This document shows positions 36,668-40,913 of a DNA stretch of 64,000 bases, in pieces (the stretch's first letter is position 1; every line of letters starts with the position of its first letter). The translations under genes were made by a program, and so were the position numbers. Location of the stretch: NCBI GenBank assembly GCA_017444385.1, contig JAFSWQ010000005.1, positions 1-64,000 of the forward strand, given 5' to 3'. A model generated the notes under the pieces. The model was not told where the DNA came from. It saw nothing but the letters and a program-made list of their open reading frames with translations, and did not search any database. This DNA is from Clostridia bacterium (lineage in GTDB: Bacteria; Bacillota; Clostridia; Christensenellales; CAG-1252).

Positions 36668-36696
36668 TTGTATTTTTTCGGCTTATATGATATTAT
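36668..36696 (+). promoter_or_regulatory. Promoter of the 260-residue membrane protein gene
   Basis: TTGTAT (36668-36673), a 17-bp spacer and TATTAT (36691-36696). An in-frame upstream start at 36668 coincides with the -35 element, which supports the later ATG at 36716. Confidence 0.55.
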
Positions 36697-36715
36697 AATA
36701 TTAAAGGAGCTTGTT

Positions 36716-37498
36716 ATGGAAAATCTATTGGCTATTAGCTCGAATTCTATTGTTCATCTCGTTTTGTTCGGTATCATCGTCGCCTTGCTCTTGGCGGTGA
36801 TTATCTCTTACGCGTTGTGGAAAAAAGGCAAACTGAACGCGAAAGGCAACTTCTTCTATAAACTTGACGGGGCGATTAGTCAGCTTGTACCGATGTGGAA
36901 AGCGAAGTTTATAACCAATTCAAACGCTAAAGAAAAAGTTCTCTTTTGGTTGGTAACGATATTCGGATTGATAGACGCCTCGCTTACGCTGGTTTCGTCG
37001 ATACTCGTTCACGAGTTCAGCATAAGTTTTATGTTTTCGTTATTATTCGTGCTTCTTATCGTTTTGCTTATAGTGACGGATTATAAATTGACGCCGAAAT
37101 ATCCTTACTATTACGACTACAATCCCTCGCTTTTGATGTACGCGGTAATAAGCCTCGTTTTCGGCTTCGTGAACTTCGTTCAAGCGGTATCCGTTTGGTA
37201 TTGGCTCTCGTTTTTGCTGGGTTTCCTCTCGTTTGCGGGCGTGATATTGTTGTATGGAATGATAGTTTTAAGACGGTTTTTCAAACGTGAATTCAAGCCC
37301 CTCGATCTTCTCGTTTATATAGGCGGCGCGGTGTTGTCGGCTCTCGAAGCGGTTTATTTCGCGTTATACGGCGTTCACGGTAGCATTTTCGGCATAATCG
37401 CTTCCGCGGTTTCCTTCGTATATGCCGTGCTGGTGATAGCGATCATACTATACGTTTACGATAAATATGAGTTCGCAAAGAAACTGTTTAAAAAATAA
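36716..37498 (+). CDS. Multi-spanning membrane protein of unknown function
   Basis: A 260-residue integral membrane protein with about seven or eight hydrophobic segments, short Lys-rich loops and a Lys-rich C-terminus. AAAGGAG precedes the ATG at 36716. It has no recognisable motif, conserved charged residue in a helix or partner gene. It is flanked by its own promoter and a terminator. It may be a small permease or a membrane-domain protein of a broad uncharacterised group. Confidence 0.7.
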   Translation: MENLLAISSNSIVHLVLFGIIVALLLAVIISYALWKKGKLNAKGNFFYKLDGAISQLVPMWKAKFITNSNAKEKVLFWLVTIFGLIDASLTLVSSILVHEFSISFMFSLLFVLLIVLLIVTDYKLTPKYPYYYDYNPSLLMYAVISLVFGFVNFVQAVSVWYWLSFLLGFLSFAGVILLYGMIVLRRFFKREFKPLDLLVYIGGAVLSALEAVYFALYGVHGSIFGIIASAVSFVYAVLVIAIILYVYDKYEFAKKLFKK

Positions 37499-37528
37499 TA
37501 ATAAACGTCGAAATAACGCTTGTTCCTA

Positions 37529-37557
37529 ACGCCTGTTTCCCGACGGGCGTTTTTTTT
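37529..37557 (+). terminator. Terminator after the membrane protein gene
   Basis: ACGCCTG (37529-37535) pairs with CGGGCGT (37544-37550, one G-T pair) around an 8-nt loop; a run of seven T follows. Confidence 0.75.
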
Positions 37558-37629: not shown

Positions 37630-38535
37630 TTAAAACACGAACCACTCGAATACGCTAATAACGTAACCCGTAATCAAACCTGTAGCGAAGAGGATCGCGG
37701 TAACAATAAGGTTGCGTTTTACGTCCTTGACGTTTTTGTACAATACGAAGAGTCCAAGTCCCGCGTTTACGCACAAACCGCCAACGCATGCGCCGAAAGG
37801 AATACCGCCCAATAGGTAGAGTTCGGAAATAATGACCGAAGACGCGCAGTTGGGGATAAAGCCGACGATTACGCTGAACAAAGGCGCTAAAAACTTGTTA
37901 TATTCCAAAAAAGCAATGACTTTATCTTCCCCGACGTAGTAGAGAAGTATTCCGAAAAGGAAGTTTATAACGAAAACGTAAGCGAATATCTTCAAGGAAT
38001 GAAGAAGGGGATGGATGAAGTTCTGCATAAACTTGCCGTGATCTTCTTCGCCCTCTATGTCGTGCCCGCAGCAACCTTTGTGATGAGTTTCTTCACAATG
38101 GCAGTCGTCTTCGTGGTCGTGTATCTCTTTTATCTTCTTATGATAGACGAAATCGACGAGATACGCAACCAAAAGTCCTACGCTAAACTTGATACCGAGC
38201 AATGGAAGCACCATTAGTATCTTCTTTGGATCTTCCACGTTTCCCAAGAAAATGGGCAAAGCTTCGTCGCTCGTAGCAATGAATACGCCGAGGAGCGTAC
38301 CTATTGTTATATGCTTTTTGTTGAAAAGGTCGGCGGCTACGACCGAAAAACCGCATTGAGGAATAAGCCCGAAGGTTACGCCTAAAACGGGCGACCACTT
38401 ATGGCTATGCTCGAACGCTCTCGCGAGCTTGGTTTCGAAAAAGGAAAAGATAACGTACAACACCAGTACGAAACCGAATATTATCGCGCTATCTTTTAAC
38501 GAATCCAAGAAAACTTCGAGCACTTGTTCGTCCAT
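37630..38535 (-). CDS. 10-TM metal exporter-like permease with His/Cys-rich loop
   Basis: A 301-residue membrane protein with two similar halves, each with a Pro-Xaa-Cys motif in a membrane segment (GLIPQCGFS near 56-64 and GFIPNCASS near 225-233). This is the pattern of the ArsP_2/'putative manganese transporter' group related to YcgR/DUF318 permeases. The central cytoplasmic loop (about 137-166) holds about eight His and five Cys, suited to metal binding. The start is set at 38535: an earlier in-frame ATG at 38577 lies inside the spacer of a consensus promoter, so it cannot be in the transcript. It is divergent from two CobW-type GTPase genes, which suggests metal export or metal-regulated transport. 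Confidence 0.78.
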   Translation of the reverse strand: MDEQVLEVFLDSLKDSAIIFGFVLVLYVIFSFFETKLARAFEHSHKWSPVLGVTFGLIPQCGFSVVAADLFNKKHITIGTLLGVFIATSDEALPIFLGNVEDPKKILMVLPLLGIKFSVGLLVAYLVDFVYHKKIKEIHDHEDDCHCEETHHKGCCGHDIEGEEDHGKFMQNFIHPLLHSLKIFAYVFVINFLFGILLYYVGEDKVIAFLEYNKFLAPLFSVIVGFIPNCASSVIISELYLLGGIPFGACVGGLCVNAGLGLFVLYKNVKDVKRNLIVTAILFATGLITGYVISVFEWFVF

Positions 38536-38556
38536 CCTTAGTTTTAGATTATAGAA

Positions 38557-38585
38557 AGTATATAAGAATATGCGCAAAATGTCAA
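38557..38585 (-). promoter_or_regulatory. Promoter of the metal permease gene
   Basis: On the minus strand consensus TTGACA (38585-38580), a 17-bp spacer and TATACT (38562-38557). It decides the start of the permease gene at 38535. Confidence 0.7.
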
Positions 38586-38599
38586 ACTAAATAATAAGA

Positions 38600-38614
38600 A
38601 AATAATAATTATCG
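38600..38614. promoter_or_regulatory. Fur/Zur-like 7-1-7 palindrome
   Basis: AAATAATAATTATCG matches the Fur-family pattern TGATAAT-N-ATTATCA at 11 of 14 positions. It lies between the divergent promoters of the permease and the CobW genes, about 15 bp upstream of the permease -35. Placement and neighbours suit a Zur- or Fur-type operator, but the area is AT-rich and a chance match is possible. Confidence 0.4.
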
Positions 38615-38646
38615 AAAATAGAAAGTGCTAACCCCCTCAAAACGAT

Positions 38647-38675
38647 TTTACAAAGCGTAAAAAAAGAGTTATAAT
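38647..38675 (+). promoter_or_regulatory. Promoter of the CobW GTPase pair
   Basis: TTTACA (38647-38652), a 17-bp spacer and consensus TATAAT (38670-38675). The ribosome binding site is AAAGGAGA. Confidence 0.6.
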
Positions 38676-38720
38676 AGCGTAGAAAATAAAGGGAACCAAT
38701 CGTTCCGAAAGGAGATATAA

Positions 38721-39977
38721 ATGGTTAAAGTAGACGTAATTTCCGGTTTTTTGGGAGCGGGTAAAACCACTTTGATCAAAAAATTATTCGAATCGCGTAT
38801 CGCGAAAGAGCAGACCGTCATTATAGAAAACGAATTTGGCAAGGTAGGTATCGACAGCAGTTTTCTTAAAGGATCCGGCGTGCAAATAAGAGAGATAAAC
38901 AGCGGTTGCATATGTTGTTCTCTCGTGGGTAACTTCGAGGACTCTATGAAAGAGGTCGTTGAAAAGTTCAATCCCGACAGAGTTATAATCGAGCCTTCGG
39001 GCGTAGGCAAATTGTCCGACGTGATAAGGGCGATTGAGAGAGTGGGCGAACCTTTGGAATTAAATATCGTTTGCACCGTAGTTGACGGGACGAGATGCCG
39101 TATGTACGTCAAGAATTACGGCGAATTCTATATCGACCAAATAAAAGAAGCCTTCACTGTTTTAGTCAGTAAGACCGACAAAATGACGCAAAGCAAGATA
39201 GACGAAGCGGTCGCGCAGATTAGGGCGTACAACGAAGATTGTACGATAATGACCACCCCCACGTCCGCGCTTACGGGCGACAAGGTGCTTGACGCGCTGG
39301 AAGAGGGCAAGGATGATTTAAAGGCGTTTATCGAGAAACTTCAAGCCGAACACGAAGAGGCTGCTCATCATCACCATCATCACGACGATGACGAAGACGA
39401 GGACGAGCACGATCACCACTGTTGTCACCATCATCACCATGATGACGACGATGACGACGAGGATCATGACCATTGCTGTCATCACCATCATGACGATGAA
39501 GAAGAAGACGAAGATCACGACCATCATTGCCACCATCACCATCACGACGAAGACGATGACGAACACGATCATTGCTGTCATCATCATGACGATGACGACG
39601 AAGATGAAGATCACGACCAACATTGTCACCATCACCATCACGACGAAGACGATGACGAACACGATCATTGTTGCCATCATCACCATCACGGTCACGATGC
39701 GGACGAAGTGTTCGAGAGTTGGGGCGCAAACACCAATTACGCTTACTCGGAAAGTGAACTCAAAGAGATACTCGAAAAACTTTCCACCGAAGAATTCGGC
39801 GTTATTTTACGCGCGAAAGGCGTTGTAAAAGCTTCCGATAAAGAAGAATGGTATCACTTCGACCTCGTTTACGGCGATTACGAGATAAGAACGGGCGAGG
39901 CTGACGTGGTAGGCAAGATATGCGTAATAGGTTCTAAGTTCGACAAAGACGCGATAATCGCGCTTTTTAATAAATAA
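38721..39977 (+). CDS. CobW/G3E-family metal-chaperone GTPase with giant His/Asp/Cys array
   Basis: A 418-residue protein. The G3E GTPase domain (1-210) has the P-loop GFLGAGKT (9-16), the metal-binding CxCC in SGCICCSL (61-68), EPSG and the guanine-specificity SKTD. A 110-residue array of His, Asp, Glu and Cys (216-325) is followed by a CobW C-terminal domain (about 335-418). The family loads zinc, nickel or cobalt into client proteins at the expense of GTP; zinc is most common. His-rich stretches are usual in the family, but usually of 10-30 residues. The gene is followed 3 bp later by a second CobW-like gene and is divergent from a metal permease. Confidence 0.88.
   Translation: MVKVDVISGFLGAGKTTLIKKLFESRIAKEQTVIIENEFGKVGIDSSFLKGSGVQIREINSGCICCSLVGNFEDSMKEVVEKFNPDRVIIEPSGVGKLSDVIRAIERVGEPLELNIVCTVVDGTRCRMYVKNYGEFYIDQIKEAFTVLVSKTDKMTQSKIDEAVAQIRAYNEDCTIMTTPTSALTGDKVLDALEEGKDDLKAFIEKLQAEHEEAAHHHHHHDDDEDEDEHDHHCCHHHHHDDDDDDEDHDHCCHHHHDDEEEDEDHDHHCHHHHHDEDDDEHDHCCHHHDDDDEDEDHDQHCHHHHHDEDDDEHDHCCHHHHHGHDADEVFESWGANTNYAYSESELKEILEKLSTEEFGVILRAKGVVKASDKEEWYHFDLVYGDYEIRTGEADVVGKICVIGSKFDKDAIIALFNK
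39366..39695 (+). repeat. His/Asp/Glu/Cys-coding repeat array inside the CobW gene
   Basis: Six to seven units of 15-18 residues follow the pattern H3-5, [DE]5-8, HDHCC or HDHHC. Two 44-bp segments (39531-39574 and 39627-39670) are identical with a 96-bp period (32 codons), and similarity extends upstream. The reading frame is kept, so the array expanded recently in steps of whole codons. Confidence 0.85.
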
Positions 39978-39980
39978 GCT

Positions 39981-40913
39981 ATGAATAGAGTAGTACCGGT
40001 AATAATTGTCAACGGCTTGCTCGAAGCGGGCAAAACGCACTTTTTGAACGAAGCGATAGATCAGGAGACTTTTATCGACGCTTCCGCAAAGGGCGTCATT
40101 CTTCAATGCGAAGAGGGGCTCGAAGAATACGACGAAAGCGTTTTGAAGAGAAATCATCTTACGGTGATTAGCTTCGATAATGAAAGCGATTTTACTGAAA
40201 GTAAGCTTAAAGAGATCGTAACGAAATACGATCCCGACGTGGTCTATATCGAACATAACGCTATGTGGACTAAGTTCGAGTTGCCCGATTGGATGGAAGT
40301 TAATCAAACGCTAACGGTGATAGACGCTTCTACTTTCAGAGTGTTTTTGAACAATATGCGCCAAAAGATCGTTGATATTCTTACCCCGTCCGAAGTTGTG
40401 ATAATGTATAATTGCGACGATCAAAAGGAAGTATCCGCGTTGAAACGCAATATAATGGTTATAAACCGCAACTTGAATTTCTTGTTGTTCGATTCGAACG
40501 GCAGGCCTGTATCTCTTGAAGACGATCTTCCTTATAAACTCTGCGACGAGATAACCTTGAAAGACGACGATTACGCGGTATTCTACTTCGAAATGAACGA
40601 GTATCCCGAGCGATATTTCAATAAATACGTCACGTTCTTAGCGAAGATCAACTTGGAAAAGAAACTTCCCAAGGGTTTCTTCTTAGCTTCGAGATTATGT
40701 ATGACTTGTTGCGTAAACGACATCCAACCCTTATTTACGATTTGCGACAATCGCTCTGCGAAAGTTGCGGTAAAGGATGACAGTTGGGGAATAATTCGCG
40801 GGCAAATCAAATACAATCAAGATCCCGAGGGTAGACCTATACCTTATCTTGAATTGGCTTCTGTCACACCCGCTTCCGCCCCAGAAAACGAAGTTCTCGG
40901 TCTGCAACAATAA
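39981..40913 (+). CDS. CobW-like P-loop protein fused to a YcgQ/TIGR03943-like Cys region
   Basis: A 310-residue protein. Residues 1-170 follow the CobW GTPase layout (P-loop GLLEAGKT, 12-19; YIEHNAMW in place of EPSG) but lack the CxCC. The C-terminal region (about 195-295) contains SRLCMTCCVNDIQPL (Cys240, Cys243, Cys244) and a 'DDSWGIIRGQI' strand, close to the 'TCCVADA' stretch of YcgQ/TIGR03943 proteins, partners of YcgR-type permeases. In Bacillus such genes and a CobW protein respond to zinc through Zur. It starts 3 bp after the first CobW gene and faces a permease across the intergenic region. The metal and the client are unknown. Confidence 0.7.
   Translation: MNRVVPVIIVNGLLEAGKTHFLNEAIDQETFIDASAKGVILQCEEGLEEYDESVLKRNHLTVISFDNESDFTESKLKEIVTKYDPDVVYIEHNAMWTKFELPDWMEVNQTLTVIDASTFRVFLNNMRQKIVDILTPSEVVIMYNCDDQKEVSALKRNIMVINRNLNFLLFDSNGRPVSLEDDLPYKLCDEITLKDDDYAVFYFEMNEYPERYFNKYVTFLAKINLEKKLPKGFFLASRLCMTCCVNDIQPLFTICDNRSAKVAVKDDSWGIIRGQIKYNQDPEGRPIPYLELASVTPASAPENEVLGLQQ

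Follow-up and report, generated by a model that had tools for sequence, protein, structure and literature searches.

A conserved pair of CobW-type GTPases in Clostridia, one with a histidine-rich array and one fused to DUF1980_C, as a putative zinc-handling system

The stretch of DNA considered here (hereafter, the window) comprises positions 1 to 64,000 of the contig JAFSWQ010000005.1 in the assembly GCA_017444385.1 of a Clostridia bacterium (Christensenellales, CAG-1252). Its segment 37630–40913 harbors a gene for an ArsP_2-family permease and, divergently from it, a gene for a CobW-type GTPase, hereafter CobW-A, followed 3 bp downstream by a hybrid gene (39981–40913) encoding a second GTPase domain, CobW-B, joined to a DUF1980_C domain (Table 1). 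The original prediction, made from the letters alone, singled out three adjacent genes with metal-binding features, and this was borne out: open reading frame (ORF) listing, translation and comparison with Pfam and NCBIfam confirmed all three as real, and the arrangement is beyond chance, since relatives carry all three genes and the His array again. Between the divergent genes lie two promoter-like sites, one for each direction, both matching the consensus at 11 of 12 positions. The conserved unit is the two-gene operon CobW-A plus CobW-B::DUF1980_C, not the three-gene locus, which is a local arrangement of a wider system.

CobW-A is a COG0523/CobW protein by its cobW domain (PF02492, 123.5 bits, cut-off 20.7), its CobW_C domain (PF07683, 38.7 bits, cut-off 22) and its GCICC motif, arranged in the order G domain with GCICC, array, CobW_C. 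It falls outside the ZigA/ZagA(YciC) subfamily (NF038288, 68.7 bits vs. a cut-off of 600) and forms part of a separate tree group (99/97). The array of 108 residues is composed of 47 His, 50 Asp/Glu, 10 Cys and one other residue. In CobW-A proteins of the pair type, the arrays have a median of 83 residues and 38 His, and they contain 8 or more His in 73 of 79. At the DNA level, the array (39366–39689) comprises visibly similar segments, i.e., blocks of CAT/CAC and GAC/GAT/GAA codons interrupted by Cys codons, which may be the cause of its variable length between species. A sequence search of solved structures with CobW-A retrieved YjiA alone.

The CobW-B domain of the hybrid matches PF02492 weakly but above the cut-off (24.4 vs. 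20.7 bits) and adopts a G3E fold in the structural model, and its DUF1980_C domain (PF21537, 61.9 bits, cut-off 25.9) carries the sequence MTCC. The hybrid does not qualify as a member of TIGR03943, the YcgQ-type permease subunit (62.7 bits vs. a cut-off of 88.8), and has no membrane segment. Residues G12, G17, K18, E44, G46, E91, N93, N125, C243, C244 and D247 are invariant in 53 aligned hybrids, and position 43 is Cys in 50 of them. The CxCC metal motif is absent from CobW-B (0/53), and the NKxD position reads mostly N-R-C-x, or Y-N-C-D in the window's genus. The predicted structure (predicted local distance difference test, pLDDT, 93) consists of a G3E-like domain (residues 1–182), matching HypB (Z 13.0) and YjiA (Z 11.9), and an oligonucleotide/oligosaccharide-binding (OB)-like domain (189–298), matching the MCM N-domain (Z 10.2 over 95 residues, root-mean-square deviation 2.6). 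Modelled alone (pLDDT 95), DUF1980_C retrieved only generic OB folds with weak scores, mostly single-stranded DNA-binding proteins; these matches were read as indicating the fold, not a function. A sequence search of solved structures with the hybrid gave nothing convincing.

The residues C243, C244 and D247 are invariant across both the hybrids and TIGR03943 in the alignment. According to a simple hydropathy count, the window's hybrid possesses no hydrophobic segment, and the TIGR03943 proteins read have three such segments before DUF1980_C, with charges placing the domain outside. Small DUF1980_C proteins linked to znu genes start with a lipoprotein- or signal-like sequence. Since the domain is soluble in the hybrid, outside in TIGR03943 and preceded by signal-like starts in the znu-linked proteins, the same Cys-Cys-x-x-Asp domain seems to serve both inside and outside the cell.

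When 84,980 species genomes were scanned for the hybrid, at least 556 relatives were confirmed, and the 80 best-matching of them, nearly all from Clostridia, were fetched. Wherever the contig suffices among these best 80, a CobW protein or its C-terminal end is encoded directly upstream on the same strand, with the exception of L081 (Butyrivibrio sp. M55), where no CobW gene directly precedes the hybrid; the contigs of L075 and L134 are too short to display the upstream gene. No other neighbor recurs beside the pair in the 80 loci. In a survey of 391 genomes of the class, 141 had some match, and about 80 matches represented full-length hybrids. The two genes bear the annotations “CobW family GTP-binding protein” and “GTP-binding protein” in Vescimonas fastidiosa. 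In the Butyrivibrio loci L084 and L093, a ZigA/YciC-type GTPase with the P-loop TGYLGSGKT and without a His array takes the place of CobW-A; its grouping with the other pair-type CobW-A was rejected in the approximately unbiased (AU) test (p 7.6e-5). The same P-loop was seen in the Butyrivibrio locus L085.

Table 1. Features of the locus, in coordinates of the window
Feature	Position	Strand	Basis or comment
ArsP_2-family permease with His/Cys loop	37630..38535	-	PF11449, NF037962; ORF reaches TTG 38577; starts of relatives near the same place
Promoter-like site TTGACA-17-TATACT, for the permease	38557..38585	-	11/12 consensus matches; consensus match only
Palindrome TTTTACaaagcGTAAAA overlapping the -35 box; possible operator	38646..38662	.	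Not kept in genus relatives
Promoter-like site TTTACA-17-TATAAT, for the GTPase pair	38647..38675	+	11/12 consensus matches; consensus match only
CobW-A, canonical COG0523/G3E GTPase with GCICC, His array and CobW_C	38721..39977	+	Pfam, sequence, tree
GCICC metal motif of CobW-A	38904..38918	+	Sequence; GCxCC in 79/79 proteins at the CobW-A position
His/Asp/Glu/Cys array of CobW-A, 108 residues, 47 His	39366..39689	+	Length differs among relatives
CobW-B::DUF1980_C hybrid, second gene of the operon, without transmembrane segment	39981..40913	+	Pfam, alignment, model, hydropathy
CobW-B domain of the hybrid, with a G3E fold, an intact P-loop, no CxCC, a degraded NKxD and a nearly invariant C43	39981..40526	+	
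DUF1980_C domain of the hybrid: OB-type fold, invariant C243, C244, D247	40533..40889	+	PF21537, models, alignment

The permease gene (37630–38577, minus strand) encodes a member of ArsP_2 (PF11449, 82.6 bits, cut-off 32.5) and of the NCBIfam family NF037962, arsenic_eff (242.1 bits, cut-off 100). It had been likened to the permeases of permease–YcgQ pairs, but it is not of the YcgR type: its score for ArsP_1/YcgR (PF03773) is 12.9 bits vs. a cut-off of 32.3, and the profiles of ArsP_2 and ArsP_1 give a colinear but weak match (probability 35). Since the listed TTG start falls inside a near-consensus promoter of the same strand (TTGACA-17-TATACT, 38585–38557), translation probably starts at ATG 38535 or GTG 38523. 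The central loop of the permease, HDHEDDCHCEETHHKGCCGHDIEGEEDHG, has His/Cys-rich counterparts in ArsP_2 relatives unlinked to the pair; hence, it is a trait of the family and is not locus-specific.

The permease, CobW and hybrid genes occur together in three members of the window's genus (G002, G003, G005). A fourth member, G004 (93% complete), carries the pair without a permease gene in the 538 upstream bases of the contig and without any NF037962 match in the genome, and the pair likewise lacks the permease in four further genomes of the order. The association across genomes is loose: NF037962 scores above the cut-off in 17 of the 40 genomes that carry the hybrid and in 15 of the 79 that do not, in counts not corrected for relatedness, and outside the genus it is unlinked. 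The permease was rejected as a core partner of the pair, being linked to it in the window's genus only and absent or unlinked in most pair genomes; ArsP_1 as a hidden partner was discarded as well (above the cut-off in only 5 of 40 genomes). Of the proposed single metal unit, the GTPase genes stand as one family of linked modules, and the permease, which adjoins the pair in the window's genus only and is missing from G004, is not integral. The expected synteny thus holds for the CobW–hybrid pair and fails for the permease, rarely adjacent to it. For the ArsP_2 permease set divergently beside the pair in the window's genus, we infer that it probably serves the membrane transport of the pair's metal or of a related one.

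Other genomes of the class harbor a split arrangement, in which CobW-A without an array is followed by CobW-B fused to an ArsP_1 permease and then by TIGR03943, or else CobW-B is a separate gene. One such CobW-B::permease protein of 523 amino acids matches both cobW (46.7 bits) and ArsP_1 (175.5 bits); separate CobW-B genes were found in L184 (with all four genes) and in L188 and L190 (with CobW-A, CobW-B and the permease). A full TIGR03943 (YcgQ) gene is usually present in split loci. Among the split-type CobW-A, 12 of 13 are devoid of any His/Asp/Glu/Cys run longer than four residues, so the arrays go with the arrangement lacking a fused permease. G226 and G305 appear to contain both arrangements.

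Fur-family and/or znu genes lie beside 8 of the 16 split loci. The gene order in L185 is znuA-znuC-znuB-fur-CobW-A-(CobW-B::permease)-TIGR03943; L189 has znuA-znuC-znuB in front and L191 has znuB-fur; znuC-znuB is located nearby in L187 and L182, and divergent fur in L176, L177 and L178. In the window's family, small DUF1980_C proteins are encoded in or beside znuA-znuC-znuB clusters, and the genus member G002 has such a protein along with the window-type pair. Genes for proteins of this kind end the znuA-znuC-znuB clusters of L055 (6303–6827), L056 (6349–6897) and L060 (6981–7496), from the window's family and order, and in two of these proteins an inserted CSSGYGCNCG-like stretch replaces the plain Cys-Cys.

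In a tree built from 66 G domains, every kind of CobW-B (joined to DUF1980_C, joined to a permease, or alone) fell on one side of a branch with support 99/96, and CobW-A of both arrangements formed one group (99/97) apart from YjiA, CobW, Nha3, ZigA and YciC. The hybrids constituted one group (99/96) among the permease-fused forms, and pair-type CobW-A one group (98/70) among the split-type proteins. Holding the permease-type CobW-B together was weakly rejected (AU p 0.033, for a group named after the tree was seen); holding the split CobW-A together was not (AU p 0.19). Likely, the membrane form came first.

From the observed gene content, fused domains, synteny, trees, zinc-gene linkage of the split form and predicted folds, we regard one explanation as rather probable: the two proteins are a GTP-driven pair of GTPases that allocates zinc in the cytosol, buffers it on the His array and descends from a membrane system for zinc. 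GTPases of the SIMIBI class often work as nucleotide-dependent dimers, and for this reason a CobW-A/CobW-B heterodimer is probable. The cytosolic substrate of such a SIMIBI/G3E pair would be a transition metal, zinc being the likeliest. CobW-A would bind the metal at GCICC and buffer many ions on its His/Asp/Glu/Cys array; CobW-B, with its P-loop kept and without CxCC, would pair with CobW-A in a nucleotide-dependent manner, and the Cys-Cys-x-x-Asp motif in the OB domain of the same protein would accept the metal or pass it on. The metal would move between GCICC plus array of CobW-A and Cys-Cys-Asp of the OB domain. The putative ancestor is a membrane system linked to zinc uptake, with CobW-B joined to an ArsP_1 permease and DUF1980_C carried outside the cell by TIGR03943; the window type would have lost the permease and the membrane anchor, and its DUF1980_C would have become fused to the GTPase in the cytosol.

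A bolder version of this explanation is possible but, on balance, doubtful. It portrays a membrane zinc transporter turned soluble, whose CobW-B GTPase exchanged the ArsP_1 permease for the DUF1980 OB domain, formerly extracellular, and whose partner gained a large His array, the result being a GTP-driven cytosolic store and hand-over of zinc across gut Clostridia, partly without Zur. Zinc, already named in the original prediction, is the best supported metal, with the homologous split form beside znu and/or Fur-family genes in half of the loci inspected. It is suggested by this linkage together with the Zur-bound permease/yciC locus of Bacillus anthracis (PMC6336718), the DUF1980_C proteins beside znu, and the replacement of CobW-A in Butyrivibrio.

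The suggestion that the unit also senses the metal found no support. Neither a sensor nor, by Rfam, a riboswitch was found at the locus, and 20 related loci showed no riboswitch of a metal or cobalamin class. The palindrome TTTTACaaagcGTAAAA over the -35 box was not found in four genus relatives, and in 42 upstream regions no gapped word stood out except promoter-like ones; with the palindrome unconserved and no word shared, a Zur-type or other common operator appears unlikely. A Fur protein is present in some pair genomes (the window's own genome is 54% complete), and none (PF01475) was detected in three others that carry the pair, G002 (98% complete), G029 (98%) and G033 (99%); hence, Zur is probably not a general regulator of the pair.

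The failure to detect Fur in these three genomes weighs against a zinc system of the kind proposed, and so do several other points. The queries used for the split loci detected no ZnuA, ZnuB or Fur gene around the 80 pair loci, matches to ZnuC only being counted as generic ABC ATPases. CobW-B has a degraded NKxD, the motif for base recognition, so its use of GTP is not assured. Support for a pair type nested inside the split type is only moderate. The fractions given here are not population estimates, since the 80 pair loci are the best of 556 matches rather than a random draw and the 16 split loci were chosen from hits of the class search. Finally, His arrays also occur in nickel and cobalt proteins such as HypB and CobW (PMC2770081).

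Very long His arrays suit storage, and the family label of the permease denotes efflux. The array could sequester excess zinc (or cadmium, nickel or cobalt), with the ArsP_2 permease as an exporter loaded by the GTPases; the heavy-metal P-type ATPase genes that follow the pair in 4 of the 80 loci and a Cu/Zn efflux family among the ArsP_1 relatives (below the cut-off) point the same way. However, the split form is linked to the uptake genes of ZnuABC, and the permeases are absent or unlinked in most pair genomes, which makes this scenario of buffering and export unlikely. The permease label also underlies the idea of an arsenic resistance locus, as the permease matches the “arsenic efflux protein” model NF037962 (242 bits, cut-off 100). 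Still, such a label is an annotation and not a test, conservation extends to the GTPase pair but not to the optional permease, His/Asp arrays do not favor arsenic, and no ars gene was recognized among the ORFs read at the locus, which were not subjected to a model search; this idea is hardly credible.

A role of the pair as a maturation chaperone for a specific enzyme, with another metal, likeliest nickel or cobalt, has a distinctly poor chance of being correct. HypB and UreG are among the folds closest to the CobW-B GTPase, and the His-rich G3E proteins include nickel and cobalt chaperones (PMC2770081). At the same time, this fold is common to the whole G3E family and does not reveal the metal, no metalloenzyme gene recurs beside the pair in the 80 loci, and both the zinc-gene linkage of the split form and the ZigA/YciC-type replacement in Butyrivibrio argue for zinc.

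Among the known systems, the locus resembles BAS1632/BAS1633 of B. anthracis, where a permease and a CobW-type GTPase also surround one intergenic region: a single Zur-bound fragment lies upstream of both the ArsP_1 permease operon BAS1632 and yciC BAS1633, with two Zur boxes and the same primer pair, swapped, used for both genes (PMC6336718). The differences are that the permease there is ArsP_1 and not ArsP_2, the GTPase is of the YciC type and not CobW-A, and no GTPase::DUF1980_C fusion has been described; moreover, B. anthracis has Zur, whereas several genomes with the window-type pair are without a detectable Fur protein. The zinc response of permease–YcgQ genes assumed for Bacillus is upheld in B. 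anthracis by this Zur binding; for B. subtilis, control of ycgRQ by an extracytoplasmic function sigma factor was reported instead (PMC5584981). The DUF1980_C domain with its Cys-Cys-x-x-Asp motif is shared with YcgR/YcgQ systems, e.g., ScfA/ScfB of group A Streptococcus (PMC5584981). In YcgQ/TIGR03943, however, it follows three N-terminal membrane segments and is probably extracellular, while in the window it is fused to a GTPase without a membrane segment, and the neighboring permease comes from another family. With ZagA/YciC and ZigA, CobW-A shares the GTPase motifs, GCxCC, CobW_C and a His stretch (PMC2770081), but it belongs to its own clade with the split-type orthologs and stands beside a second, degenerate GTPase; its array counts 47 His vs. 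up to 29 in an earlier report (PMC2770081).

No description of the pair was found in the searchable literature, which mostly leaves out subscription papers. Most likely, the pair represents widespread, undescribed metal-handling GTPases of gut Clostridia acting on zinc. YcgRQ/DUF1980 and most COG0523 proteins are without an established mechanism, and the three arrangements of CobW-B tie these families into one system; its occurrence with a permease, alone and with DUF1980_C suggests that the GTPase couples a cytosolic metallochaperone to the permease. If the proposed zinc allocation is true, the role of GTP in it would become testable in soluble bacterial proteins, and a function would be assigned to a gene pair carried by many rumen and human-gut Clostridia and now annotated only as GTP-binding proteins.

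Several minor features were recorded along the way. A gene for a P-type cation ATPase directly follows the hybrid in L047 (7275–9962, G003) and L054 (493–3177, G001) and is absent there in the window. In G028, the gene of a CpXC protein (PF14353, 83 bits; L048 7025–7639) overlaps the start of an array-less CobW-A. In the window, a membrane protein gene of unassigned family (36668–37498; a TMEM128 match of 20 bits, below the cut-off) is convergent with the permease gene and is followed by a terminator-like hairpin at 37528–37551. Two more PF02492 genes (L002, L003) lie close together elsewhere in the genome of the window (G000:C11 61703–63517).

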